Source: Rhodopseudomonas julia (lineage in GTDB: Bacteria > Pseudomonadota > Alphaproteobacteria > Rhizobiales > Afifellaceae). Taken from it: a stretch of 64,000 nucleotides of DNA. The notes beneath the pieces were generated by a model. That model saw only the letters and a program-made list of their open reading frames with translations, was not told the DNA's origin and ran no database searches. A program made the translations under genes and the position numbers. The stretch's first letter is position 1. The number at the start of each line of letters is the position of its first letter. The stretch covers positions 1,612,001 through 1,676,000 of the forward strand of contig NZ_JAUSUK010000002.1 in assembly GCF_030813515.1 (NCBI RefSeq). The letters are read 5' to 3'. This document shows, one piece after another, positions 56,837 through 61,179 of this stretch.

Positions 56837-57079
56837 CACGCCCTCCCATCCGGCGACCACATCACAACTTTGCCGCACTTGCCTCAGTCTAGACACAATT
56901 TCTAACACCCACAAAGCTCTGATCGCACGCAAAATTTTACTACCGTTAAGCGAGCGCAAAGATGCGCCAGGCACTGGCACGCAGTGACACGCTGAGGTCG
57001 CAACTCGAACTTTCAGCAAAGTGTGCGCGCTTTTTATGCGTGACGGCTCGCGACGCATTGGCTAGCCTCATCCCGCAGC

Positions 57080-58528
57080 ATGGAACAGACAGTCGGCCAG
57101 CGCGGCTTAGCGCGTGAGATCATCTTCAACGAAATGATCGGGCCCGAAGGGGCGCCGCGGGGCCATTACGTGACCCTCTCCGAATGGCTGGAACAACAGC
57201 CGGCGCGGGATTTGAAGCGCAAGCGGGCCGAGGCCGAATCGATCTTTCGACGCCTCGGCATCACCTTCGCCGTCTACGGCTCCAACGATACGCTGGAACG
57301 CCTGATCCCGTTCGACCTCATTCCCCGCATCATATCGGCGGCGGAGTGGCGCCTTCTCGAACGCGGCATCGAGCAACGGGTGCGAGCGCTCAACGCCTTC
57401 CTCCTCGACATCTACAACCGACAGGAGATCATCCGAGCAGGACGGATCCCGGCCGATATCGTCCTGCGCAACGACGCTTTTCTGCCGGAAATGATCGGGC
57501 ACCGGCCACCGCTCGGCGTCTTCAGCCACATCGTCGGCACTGATATCGTGCGCACGGGGCCGCAAGATTTCTTCGTCCTGGAAGACAATCTGCGCACGCC
57601 CTCCGGCGTCTCCTACATGTTGGAGAACCGCGAGGCGATGTTGCACCTCTTCCCGGAGCTTTTTGCGCGCCATTGCGTCGCGCCGGTGCAGCATTATCCG
57701 GAGCTTCTGCGCCAGACGCTGGAAGCGGTGTCGCCGGTGGCGCCGGAAGAAACGACGATCGCGGTGCTGACGCCCGGCATTCACAACTCGGCCTATTTCG
57801 AGCATTCCTTCCTCGCCGATCAGATGGGCGTCGAGCTCGTCGAAGGGCAGGATCTCTTCGTCTCCGGCGGGGCGCTCTACATGCGCACGACGCGGGGACC
57901 GATGCGTGTGCATGTCGTCTACAGGCGCATCGACGACGAGTTTCTCGATCCCCTCACCTTCCGACCCGATTCCATTTTGGGCGTGCCGGGGCTCATGGAC
58001 CTCTACCGGGCCGGTGCCGTCACCATCGTCAATGCGCCAGGCACCGGCATCGCCGACGACAAGGCGATCTACTCCTGGGTGCCGGAGATCGTCGAGTTCT
58101 ATACGGGACAGAAGCCCATCCTGCAGAACGTCCCGACCTGGCGCTGCGCCGAACCGGAAGCGCTCTCCTACGTGCTCGAGCATCTCTCGGAACTCGTGGT
58201 GAAGGAGGTTCACGGGTCTGGAGGCTACGGTATGCTCGTGGGACCGACATCTTCGAAGAAGCAGATCGAGCAGTTCCGTCGGATTCTAAAGGCCAGGCCA
58301 TCGAACTACATCGCCCAGCCGACGCTCGCTCTGTCTGCCTGCCCGGCTTTTACGAAATCGGGCGTCGCGCCCCGTCACGTCGATCTCAGACCTTTCAGTC
58401 TCGTCAGCGACCGTGTGCGCATCGTCGCCGGTGGTCTCACCCGTGTGGCGCTCAAGAAGGGGTCCCTCGTCGTCAATTCCTCACAGGGTGGCGGCACCAA
58501 GGACACTTGGGTGCTGACCGATGAATGA
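57080..58528 (+). CDS. Circularly permuted type 2 ATP-grasp protein
   Basis: A 482-residue protein of the DUF404/DUF407 (circularly permuted ATP-grasp) family. Conserved stretches are PFDLIPRIISAAEWRLLERG, RNDAFLPEMIG, FFVLEDNLRTPSGVSYMLENR, VVKEVHGSGGYGMLVGPTSS and TRVALKKGSLVVNSSQGGG. These enzymes are predicted to form amide or peptide bonds using ATP. It leads a four-gene operon with alpha-E, transglutaminase and Anbu proteins, which has been proposed to make and process a peptide tag or small peptide. The start is plain ATG 57080. Confidence 0.92.
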   Translation: MEQTVGQRGLAREIIFNEMIGPEGAPRGHYVTLSEWLEQQPARDLKRKRAEAESIFRRLGITFAVYGSNDTLERLIPFDLIPRIISAAEWRLLERGIEQRVRALNAFLLDIYNRQEIIRAGRIPADIVLRNDAFLPEMIGHRPPLGVFSHIVGTDIVRTGPQDFFVLEDNLRTPSGVSYMLENREAMLHLFPELFARHCVAPVQHYPELLRQTLEAVSPVAPEETTIAVLTPGIHNSAYFEHSFLADQMGVELVEGQDLFVSGGALYMRTTRGPMRVHVVYRRIDDEFLDPLTFRPDSILGVPGLMDLYRAGAVTIVNAPGTGIADDKAIYSWVPEIVEFYTGQKPILQNVPTWRCAEPEALSYVLEHLSELVVKEVHGSGGYGMLVGPTSSKKQIEQFRRILKARPSNYIAQPTLALSACPAFTKSGVAPRHVDLRPFSLVSDRVRIVAGGLTRVALKKGSLVVNSSQGGGTKDTWVLTDE

Positions 58529-58588
58529 GCGAGCCCGTCGCATGCACAGTGAACGCAGCCCCTGGCAGCGTCCGAGAGATCGATCGCC

Positions 58589-59542
58589 ATGCTAAGCCGC
58601 GTCGCATCGAGCCTCTTTTGGATGTCTCGCTATATCGAGCGGGCAGAAAACATTTCGCGCCTCTGCGAAGCGGGGTTTCGTATCTCGCTCACCCCAAAAG
58701 TGGGCGGGGGGCATAAGGAAGAATGGCTCTCGACGCTTAAGAGCGCGGGCGTGCTTGAAAGCTATCTCTCCGTCCATGACGAAATCACCGGCGAGAAGGC
58801 AATCAACTTCCTGCTGTTCGACGAACGCAACGCGTCGTCGGTCAAGTCGTGCCTCACCTCCGCGCGCAACAATGCCCGCATCGTGCGCACCAAGCTCACC
58901 CGGGACATGTGGGAATCCCTGAACGATACCTGGATTGCCCTGCAGGCGGTGTCTCCCCAATCGATGACGAATGCCCGGCTGCCCGATTTTCTGGATTGGG
59001 TCCGCCACCGCACGGCGCAGTTTCGCGGTGCGCTCCTCGGCACCGTCCTGCGCGACGAGGGTTATTATTTCAGTCAGCTCGGCGCTTTCATCGAGCGCGC
59101 CGATAACACGGCGCGTATCGTCGACGTGAAATACTACCTCTTACTGCCGGACCATCAGGCCGTCGGAGGCGCAATCGACACCTATCAATGGGAGACGATC
59201 CTCAGAGCCGTCTCGGCGCAGCGCTCCTACCGACATGTCTTCCATGAAGATTACCGCCCGTGGCGGGTCGCCGAGTTCTTGATCCTGCGGCCAGAAATGC
59301 CGCGATCGTTACGTTTCTGCTATGACTGGCTCAACGTCACGATCGACGGTTTGATTGAAGGCCAACATCCAGAGCTCAGCGCCGCGCGACTCATTCGCAG
59401 CACCCATCAGCTCCTGAAAAGTAGCCAGATGGACGATATTTTTCAGTCGGGCCTGCACGAATTTCTCACCGATTTCATCGATCGCAACAACCGCGTCACT
59501 GGAAACCTGGCGGTCGATTACTGTTTTGAGCAGGCGGCCTGA
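58589..59542 (+). CDS. Alpha-E domain protein (DUF403)
   Basis: A 317-residue all-alpha protein: MLSRVASSLFWMSRYIERAEN at the N-terminus, then LPDFLDWVRHRTAQFRGAL, YYFSQLGAFIERADNTARIVDVKYYLL and a C-terminal YDWLNVTIDGL. Conserved Glu and Arg residues in each repeat form the alpha-E pattern. It always travels with the type 2 ATP-grasp protein and may be its partner, either a peptide-binding scaffold or a second enzyme. It begins 60 bases after the ATP-grasp stop. Confidence 0.92.
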   Translation: MLSRVASSLFWMSRYIERAENISRLCEAGFRISLTPKVGGGHKEEWLSTLKSAGVLESYLSVHDEITGEKAINFLLFDERNASSVKSCLTSARNNARIVRTKLTRDMWESLNDTWIALQAVSPQSMTNARLPDFLDWVRHRTAQFRGALLGTVLRDEGYYFSQLGAFIERADNTARIVDVKYYLLLPDHQAVGGAIDTYQWETILRAVSAQRSYRHVFHEDYRPWRVAEFLILRPEMPRSLRFCYDWLNVTIDGLIEGQHPELSAARLIRSTHQLLKSSQMDDIFQSGLHEFLTDFIDRNNRVTGNLAVDYCFEQAA

Positions 59543-59544
59543 CC

Positions 59545-60348
59545 ATGCGGCTCAAGATCCGGCACGTCACCACCTACAATTATGCGAGCGCCGGTCGCTA
59601 CGCCATTCAGCGGCTACGCCTGACGGCCCGCGCGAATGCCGCGCAAACGGTCGAAGAATGGCGGATCGAAGCACCCGGCATCGATCAGGCAGCAAGTTAT
59701 ACAGACGGTTTCGGCAATATCACGCATCTCGTCACCCAGGACCCGCCGCTCGAAACATTGTCCATCGTTGCGGAAGGCGTGGTGGTAACGAAAGATACCG
59801 GGGGGGTTACGGGACGCCCGCCGGAGGCCGCCAATCCGGCGTCTTTTCTGCGCAGCACAGCCAGCACCGAGGCCTCCCCTGCAATCCGCAAGATCGCGCG
59901 CAACGCCAGAGGCGACGACCGCCTGGCCCTGTTGCACAGTCTGATGGCGGTGATCGGCGATCATATGAGCTTCGATACCGATTCAAGCCATGCCGGGACC
60001 AGTGCAGCAGACGCATTCGCCGCCGGTTTCGGCGTCTGCCAGGACTTCACCCACATCTTCTGCGCTGCCGCCCGCACTCTGGAGGTGCCGGCGCGCTATG
60101 TGACCGGCTATCTGAGGCTCGACGACGAGGTCCCCTCAGTGGCGCACCACGCCTGGGCGGAGGCCTTCGTGCCGGAGCTCGGCTGGGTCGGCTTCGACGT
60201 TGCAAACGGCATCTGCCCAACGGAAAATTATGTTCGTCTCGCCTGCGGCCTCGACGCGCGTGCTGCCGCCCCTATAGTCGGCTTACATCGACAGGCGGGC
60301 GAGGAAACTCTGTCCGTGGACGTCGTCGTCGAACAGCAGCAGCAATAG
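59545..60348 (+). CDS. Transglutaminase-like cysteine peptidase
   Basis: A 267-residue protein: an N-terminal beta domain (MRLKIRHVTTYNYASAGRYA) and a transglutaminase-fold domain with catalytic Cys165 (GFGVCQDFTHIF), His202 (AHHAWAEAFV) and Asp218 (WVGFDVAN). Family members hydrolyse or rearrange amide bonds. It starts 2 bases after the alpha-E stop. In this operon type it is thought to trim or transfer the ATP-grasp product, which remains inference. Confidence 0.92.
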   Translation: MRLKIRHVTTYNYASAGRYAIQRLRLTARANAAQTVEEWRIEAPGIDQAASYTDGFGNITHLVTQDPPLETLSIVAEGVVVTKDTGGVTGRPPEAANPASFLRSTASTEASPAIRKIARNARGDDRLALLHSLMAVIGDHMSFDTDSSHAGTSAADAFAAGFGVCQDFTHIFCAAARTLEVPARYVTGYLRLDDEVPSVAHHAWAEAFVPELGWVGFDVANGICPTENYVRLACGLDARAAAPIVGLHRQAGEETLSVDVVVEQQQQ

Positions 60349-60378
60349 CGAGCGCAAGCTGCCTCCGGAGAAGCGGAA

Positions 60379-61179
60379 ATGACGTATTGCGTGGGCCTGC
60401 GCCTCGACCGAGGCATCGTCTTCGCCTCCGACACGCGCACCAATGCCGGCGTCGACAACGTGTCCATCTTCAAGAAGATGCATATCTGGGAGCGCAAGGG
60501 TGAGCGGCTGCTCGTGCTCTTGTCTGCCGGCAACCTTTCCGTAACGCAATCCGTCGTCTCGCTTCTCAACGAGAGGCTGCATCTCGCCGCCGATGGCAGC
60601 GAGCCATCCCTGATGACGGTGGAGACGATGTTTCAGGCGGCCCGCCTCGTCGGGCAGACGGTGCGTGAGGCTCTCGCAGATCAGGACGAGGCAGCACGCG
60701 AAAATCCTGGTCTCTTCTCCGCGTCCTTCATCTTCGGCGGGCAGATCGAGGGAGATATCCACCGCCTCTTTCTGATCTATCAGGAAGGCAACTTCATCGA
60801 AGCGACGAAGGACACGCCATATTTCCAGATCGGCGAGCACAAATACGGCAAGCCGATCCTCGACCGCGTCACGGTGGCGCCGATGCGCATGGGTGAAGCG
60901 GCAAAACTCGTCCTCATCTCGTTCGATTCCACCTTGCGGTCAAACCTTTCCGTCGGGCTGCCCATCGATCTTCTCATCTACCGCAAGGACACGCTGACGA
61001 TCGGCGAGCAACGCCGCATCGAGGCGGAAGATCCCTATTTCCGCAAGCTTTCGCATGCCTGGTCGGAGGCTCTGCGCGACGCTTTTGCCCGCATCGACGA
61101 ATATGAGGCTCTCGACGCAGGCGGACCGCCTCCCATCAGCCTCGTGCCATCGAAGCCGCCGGCAAAGGAAGAGGCCTAG
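60379..61179 (+). CDS. Anbu proteasome-like peptidase
   Basis: A 266-residue Ntn-hydrolase of the Anbu family (ancestral beta subunit, also annotated proteasome-type protease). The N-terminus is MTYCVGLRLDRG, so removal of Met exposes the catalytic Thr. It is followed by VFASDTRTNAGVDN with the conserved Asp, FKKMHIWERKGERLLVLLSAGNLS and FIFGGQIEG. Anbu forms helical or ring-like assemblies related to HslV, without its own unfoldase gene nearby. It ends the operon with the ATP-grasp, alpha-E and transglutaminase genes, 31 bases after the last. Confidence 0.93.
   Translation: MTYCVGLRLDRGIVFASDTRTNAGVDNVSIFKKMHIWERKGERLLVLLSAGNLSVTQSVVSLLNERLHLAADGSEPSLMTVETMFQAARLVGQTVREALADQDEAARENPGLFSASFIFGGQIEGDIHRLFLIYQEGNFIEATKDTPYFQIGEHKYGKPILDRVTVAPMRMGEAAKLVLISFDSTLRSNLSVGLPIDLLIYRKDTLTIGEQRRIEAEDPYFRKLSHAWSEALRDAFARIDEYEALDAGGPPPISLVPSKPPAKEEA

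Follow-up and report, generated by a model that had tools for sequence, protein, structure and literature searches.

The stretch of Rhodopseudomonas julia DNA analyzed here (contig NZ_JAUSUK010000002.1, positions 1,612,001 to 1,676,000; its full 64,000 nucleotides are called the window below) carries an intact and ordinary copy of the published Anbu operon, in which genes for an ATP-grasp enzyme, an Alpha-E protein, a transglutaminase-like protein and the proteasome-like protein Anbu follow one another. This operon has been known for more than 15 years, citing papers tracing it to Iyer et al. 2009 and, before that, Valas and Bourne 2008 (see also PMC5666114, PMC6376114), and the locus is not a new system. 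The original prediction, made from the DNA letters alone, was right to describe the combination of families as already known. The window copy shares with the published operon the four families, their order and the catalytic residues, and its one distinctive feature is the absence of a sigma-54 promoter motif. Comparison with relatives narrows the question: Anbu is seldom found without an ATP-grasp gene, some lineages have no transglutaminase or one without the catalytic cysteine, and sigma-54 motifs are lineage-dependent. Our tentative reading, to which we give somewhat less than an even chance, is that an ATP-driven amide ligase is paired with an N-terminal nucleophile (Ntn) hydrolase that cuts its product, all four genes serving as one cytosolic unit.

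Table 1. Genes of the Anbu operon in the window and the sequence block upstream of them
Feature	Position in window	Strand	Basis
Upstream block, CTTTTTATGCGTGAC then TTGGCTAGC	57030..57069	+	alignment of four Afifella (window, L038, L039, L040)
CP_ATPgrasp_2, circularly permuted ATP-grasp enzyme, predicted amide/peptide ligase, 482 amino acids	57080..58528	+	Pfam 5.6e-162
Alpha-E, 317 amino acids	58589..59542	+	Pfam 1.4e-93
Transglutaminase-like protein, 267 amino acids	59545..60348	+	Pfam: Transglut_core 5.6e-20, Bact_transglu_N 1.5e-18
Anbu-1, proteasome-like Ntn-hydrolase, 266 amino acids	60379..61179	+	3.3e-96 to solved Anbu 5nyj

The coordinates of the open reading frames (ORFs) agree with the earlier description of four genes on one strand separated by exactly 60, 2 and 30 bases, and this spacing and common strand suggest that the genes are co-transcribed. 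The families first named for them were also correct, as judged by Pfam and, for Anbu, by the solved structure 5nyj. The CP_ATPgrasp_2 profile is covered completely (positions 1-374 of 374). In NCBIfam, the ATP-grasp, Alpha-E and transglutaminase proteins were unmatched and Anbu received a weak proteasome match only; the Pfam Proteasome match to Anbu (3.7e-4) is likewise under Pfam's cut-off, and the identity of this protein is established by its match to 5nyj. The closest database relative is Afifella marina, with 98% identity in Anbu. Against three other Afifella, the ratio of nonsynonymous to synonymous substitution rates (dN/dS) was 0.03-0.12 for the ATP-grasp gene, 0.03-0.13 for Alpha-E, 0.07-0.17 for the transglutaminase and 0.03-0.18 for Anbu. 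All four genes are under purifying selection, and these ratios, together with the expectation values of the matches and the conserved gene order, exclude chance as an explanation of the locus. The window genome encodes one Alpha-E and one CP_ATPgrasp_2 protein, three proteins with a transglutaminase core (two of them outside the operon), one rpoN, and one further proteasome-family protein besides Anbu, which is probably HslV.

One search of genome contigs with the window Anbu returned 35 loci, and all four genes stand in order in 33 of them. Among these 33 loci, one (L041; L numbers denote loci and G numbers genomes) has its ATP-grasp gene cut by a contig end. At L071, Anbu is divergent from the ATP-grasp and Alpha-E genes and a transglutaminase gene was not found, and at L072 the contig begins at the locus, so that the order cannot be judged. 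At the class level, an Anbu match was present in 30 of 115 genomes, the window's own included, and 21 further Anbu-1 loci (L073-L093) were examined with their flanks. The strict four-gene order holds in 12 of the 21, Anbu is convergent with a transglutaminase gene in two (L080, L091), and one locus (L081) is cut by a contig end.

Among 398 genomes sampled at the phylum level, Anbu was found in 144 and the ATP-grasp enzyme in 212. The two proteins occur together in 141 genomes (Fisher p about 9e-49, uncorrected for relatedness), whereas 71 genomes have the ATP-grasp enzyme without Anbu; therefore Anbu goes with the ligase and not the reverse. Of the 144 Anbu genomes, at least 101 (100 measured pairs and the window) have the ATP-grasp gene upstream of Anbu, on the same strand and within 5.2 kb, where the linked pairs were chosen by eye and the intervening genes were read in a minority of them. 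In the 100 measured pairs the median distance between the two genes is 1,856 bases, and 91 of the distances fall between 1,600 and 2,400 bases; in two genomes (G417 and G491) the distance is too short for both other genes. Separately, seven genomes of family f117 (G297, G300, G212, G150, G355, G367, G408) encode an ATP-grasp protein 67-69% identical to that of the window, and Anbu was unmatched in them at 1e-10.

The transglutaminase-like protein is the loosest member of the operon and not a fixed partner, since 4 of the 21 class-level loci have no gene for it between those of Alpha-E and Anbu, and 2 of 47 operon copies are without the catalytic cysteine. The window protein matches the solved structure 3isr at 1.6e-12, and alignment confirmed its triad of Cys165, His202 and Asp218 at the positions first assigned. 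The two copies without the cysteine (L082 9122-9904 and L088 8716-9549) retain the histidine and aspartate, as do all 47 operon transglutaminases in the alignment, from which L091 and L093 were left out and in which row 48 is a non-operon protein from L103. The four loci without room for the gene (L075, L084, L087 and L093) have gaps of 54-283 bases at this place; their genomes encode other transglutaminase-like proteins, as do 10 of 10 genomes of a follow-up search, and at L093 such a gene adjoins the operon on the opposite strand. The window genome has two adjacent extra transglutaminase-like genes (L103 8577-10506; C2, about 84.6-86.5 kb), and no ATP-grasp or Alpha-E matches were found in the 19 kb surrounding this pair.

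The original prediction was to fall if catalytic residues proved absent on alignment; they are present in all of the catalytic proteins. The ATP-grasp protein matches its solved homologue 3n6x at 5.8e-194, and nine of its residues (E168, D169, N170, R172, K375, H433, D435, R437 and N466) are invariant in 51 of 51 aligned sequences, the cut copy of L041 being left out. The ATP-grasp enzyme of a Yersinia Anbu operon liberates phosphate from ATP (PMC6376114). For Anbu, the match to 5nyj extends across residues 1-243, and both proteins begin with Met-Thr. The structures 5nyj and 5nyf, which we take to be those of the Hyphomicrobium Anbu of Vielberg et al. 2018, differ from the window Anbu in that the latter carries about 23 extra, proline-rich residues at its C-terminus. 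After removal of the methionine, Thr1 is the predicted nucleophile of the window protein, accompanied by Asp17 and Lys32; the threonine is conserved in 65 of 66 aligned sequences (L062 has serine), the aspartate in 65 and the lysine in all 66. The exposed threonine foreseen at the outset is therefore borne out. The label of peptidase is unproven, standard peptide substrates having been left uncut by the Anbu proteins tested (PMC6376114, PMC5666114), and the literature describes the function of Anbu as unknown or unconfirmed.

The substrate pocket of Anbu bears on what kind of amide may be cut. The window S1 pocket (T20-F30-S48-L52-T55) is similar, although not identical, to the amphiphilic pocket of Pseudomonas aeruginosa Anbu-1 (T20, F30, T48, L52, S55; PMC5666114). 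Because Anbu retains such a proteasome-type pocket, a peptide-like substrate is favored, which counts against a protein-free pathway in which the ligase turns a metabolite, for instance a polyamine or an amino acid, into an amide and Anbu serves as the amidase for that compound. Other Ntn-hydrolases do cleave non-peptide amides (PMC6376114), and 3n6x carries the label of a putative glutathionylspermidine synthase, but this label is an annotation only, and we regard the small-molecule pathway as quite unlikely.

The consensus of the -24/-12 elements of sigma-54 promoters is TGGCAC-N5-TTGC. We searched for this motif from 500 bases before to 120 bases after the point at which the ATP-grasp match begins, accepting at least 9 matches out of 10 with the GG and GC required. 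The motif was found in 31 of 96 linked copies, compared to 0-3 in nine controls with other spacings or on the opposite strand, and perfect motifs numbered seven versus none in the controls; these counts include related, non-independent genomes, and a few matches about 300 bases upstream may be due to chance. Five linked copies are excluded from the 96, of which L089 and L090 reach 9/10, and the window, L076 and L077 do not. The motifs are spread over 10 of 21 families, with 10 of 11 in family f116 and 0 of 20 in family f24. NtrC-like dyads with a spacing of 5 and at least 10 of 12 matches were found in 16 of the 96 copies, compared to 2-5 at seven other spacings. Sigma-54 control of the window copy is unsupported, its best motif scoring 5/10, and the other Afifella scored 7/10 (A. 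marina) and 5/10 (L040) or gave no candidate (L039). The best NtrC-like dyad upstream of the window operon (8/12 at -117) is no better than noise. The block upstream of the operon (Table 1), conserved in the alignment of four Afifella, is possibly a promoter and has no sigma-54 site.

Nitrogen-dependent control of the operon in relatives has been described previously. The Pseudomonas putida operon PP_2685-PP_2688 resembles that of the window in uniting a proteasome-like gene with genes for a transglutaminase and an ATP-grasp enzyme (PMC8050072, PMC7801951, PMC3325844). Among them, PP_2685 and PP_2688 are up when nitrate replaces ammonium (PMC8050072), PP_2685-PP_2687 are up under nitrogen limitation (PMC3325844), and the operon is called likely to be controlled by NtrB/NtrC (PMC7801951). 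In contrast to this nitrogen-responsive operon, our scan detected no sigma-54 motif in the upstream region of the Afifella copies. COG3484 is reported as sigma-54-enriched in Proteobacteria (PMC12316311), a transglutaminase-like protein cluster as a common NtrC/sigma-54 target in Burkholderia (PMC5491218), and, in Bradyrhizobium, a predicted RpoN site is listed for an ATP-grasp protein (PMC13207237); a paper on nitrogen starvation in Paraburkholderia (PMC5748707) contains none of five terms looked for in it. With sigma-54/NtrC control of relatives already published, the sigma-54 link is ruled out as a new discovery; our analysis of regulation confirms published work and adds the lineage dependence of the motif.

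Taken as a single cytosolic unit, the four genes would make and break a product held together by an amide link. Together with Alpha-E, the ATP-grasp enzyme would spend ATP to convert a carboxylate into an acyl phosphate and join it to an amine, and Anbu would use its N-terminal threonine to cut the amide or a chain bearing it. The transglutaminase-like protein may contribute an accessory step of acyl transfer or hydrolysis, dispensable in some lineages. In many proteobacteria, apparently not in Afifella, this unit would be nitrogen-responsive and would stand behind a sigma-54 promoter, so that a part of the product in salvaging or storing nitrogen is probable. In favor of this reading are the intact catalytic residues and low dN/dS of the four genes, the near-complete co-occurrence of Anbu with the ATP-grasp gene and their linkage, the phosphate release by the Yersinia enzyme, the reaction of Anbu Thr1 with epoxomicin (PMC5666114), the nitrogen response of the P. 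putida operon, and the sigma-54 motifs and NtrC-like dyads of relatives. We infer co-transcription, the cytosolic location, the order of ligase before hydrolase, and the nature of the substrate and its chemistry.

Several observations weigh against this reading. The ATP-grasp gene is missing in three of the 144 Anbu genomes (G199, G403, G492), and Anbu stands apart from the other three genes in two of the 21 class-level loci (L085, L086). The tested Anbu proteins left standard peptide substrates uncleaved (PMC6376114, PMC5666114), and when Anbu served as bait in a pull-down, none of the operon proteins proved a specific partner (PMC6376114). On the regulatory side, the Afifella copies are without a sigma-54 motif although rpoN is present; the NtrC-like dyads occur independently of the sigma-54 motif, since at the threshold of 10/12 they are found in 8 of the 31 copies that have the motif and in 8 of the 65 that do not, and at 9/12 in 14 of 31 and 34 of 65, respectively; and in P. 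putida the change of the Anbu gene (PP_2685) is only 1.1-4.8 fold, compared to 11-37 fold for PP_2686-PP_2688 (PMC7801951). The strongest published case comes from the authors of PMC5666114, who favor protein degradation and hold a role in peptide synthesis less likely. As a salvage protease, Anbu would degrade damaged or surplus protein, for example in cells starved of nitrogen, while the products of the other three genes process the peptides or regulate Anbu. Consistent with this alternative are the proteasome active site of Anbu, the reaction of Thr1 of P. aeruginosa Anbu with the proteasome inhibitors epoxomicin and MG132 (PMC5666114), and the response of the P. putida operon to nitrogen supply. 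However, a general protease would have no need of an ATP-grasp enzyme, so the rarity of Anbu without one argues against this alternative, as do the uncut standard substrates (PMC6376114), and we consider it rather unlikely.

The genes around the operon bear on another alternative, in which the ATP-grasp enzyme and the transglutaminase attach a peptide or an amino acid to proteins, and Anbu strips the tag or degrades the tagged protein. Two amide-forming folds adjoin a proteasome homologue in this operon, and protein tagging is among the hypotheses published in PMC6376114. However, the place of the transglutaminase is empty or its cysteine missing in the copies described above, and clustering of 7,810 ORFs of at least 70 amino acids within 9 kb of Anbu at 66 loci revealed neither a recurrent tag-peptide family, shorter ORFs being outside the clustering, nor any extra family fixed beside the Anbu-1 operon. 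We find tagging unlikely. The clusters obtained comprised the operon genes themselves, ORFs that overlap these genes internally or on the opposite strand, and a group belonging to Anbu-2-like loci; the remaining ones were considered as a recurrent tag peptide, unfoldase or transporter and rejected, since they are scattered in position and strand or confined to few genera and were judged generic from this pattern alone. Precursor and unfoldase families are also absent from the five flanking proteins of the window (Pfam, NCBIfam), so the earlier statement that neither is visible nearby holds for these proteins and, within the limits of the clustering, for the 66 loci.

Alpha-E, the presumed partner of the ligase in the favored amide-forming unit, is an internal tandem duplication with one E-R motif per half. 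Its AlphaFold model, built from 25 sequences, is all helix (mean predicted local distance difference test score, pLDDT, 87.6), and the helix lengths of residues 2-150 are roughly repeated in residues 157-310. Aligned with HHalign, the two halves scored 108.9 in global mode, at a probability of 99.4%, and 109.0 in local mode, at 99.0%, compared to local-mode scores of 28.2 for the best of 40 column-shuffled controls and 9.2 for a column-reversed one. The alignment pairs E17-R18 with E169-R170, R24 with R176, and S84 with S240, and E17, R18, E169 and R170 are kept in 52 of 52 aligned sequences. Sequence searches gave no convincing solved relative; a profile match of positions 182-294 to Cullin-4B (2.4e-4) was judged a likely helical false positive and rejected. 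A Foldseek search of the model against solved structures gave 230 matches at E-values of at most 10, of which none reached 0.001. Paired mutations in the two E-R motifs could probe the duplicated fold. A far-reaching proposal, which we hold to be very improbable, is that the ATP-grasp enzyme extends an amide-linked chain whose two ends are gripped by the twin pseudo-symmetric E-R sites. The module would then be a template-free polymerase of a nitrogen-linked oligomer, and Anbu would be the depolymerase dedicated to it. It is part of the same improbable proposal that, separately, the Anbu-2 proteins considered below form a branch working beside ClpS-ClpA.

Among the loci compared, the L,D-transpeptidase gene adjoining the window operon was seen in those of Afifella only, and the neighboring hydrolase gene has one further weak match, at L102, about 8 kb from an Anbu-like fragment. 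In family f116, a gene on the opposite strand is inserted between the transglutaminase and Anbu genes at L200 (3985-5598) and L203 (2413-4023), two of four retrieved loci that were examined; its translation, judged by eye, looks like a solute-binding protein.

A more distant Anbu is encoded at eight class-level loci (L094-L101), where the pocket residues, at approximately aligned positions, are Ile/Val, Ala, Arg and Arg and resemble the pocket published for Anbu-2. The latter shares the proteasome-like fold and the Thr1/Asp/Lys active site with the window Anbu and differs from it in having a basic S1 pocket; it occurs mainly in other phyla, with one alphaproteobacterium named (PMC5666114). No ATP-grasp match was found in about 18-20 kb around each of the eight loci. 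In the literature on Anbu together with ClpA, ClpS or phasin, PMC6376114 alone among the ten matches listed out of 161 names Anbu, and ClpA appears there as a comparison of crystal packing. Both ClpS and ClpA are encoded at five of the eight loci (L094-L097 and L099), with ClpA following ClpS, while a phasin-like gene and a D-Ala-D-Ala carboxypeptidase gene are each present at six. An Anbu-2-like gene was detected in 12 genomes of a 240-genome class sample. The single ClpS listed for the genome is divergent from this gene and within about 2 kb of it, as judged by eye, in eight of the 12, which belong to seven genera (G015, G035, G040, G079, G112, G516, G528 and G608), and is not so placed in the other four (G028, G051, G105 and G551). 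This head-to-head arrangement is possibly an inherited neighborhood.

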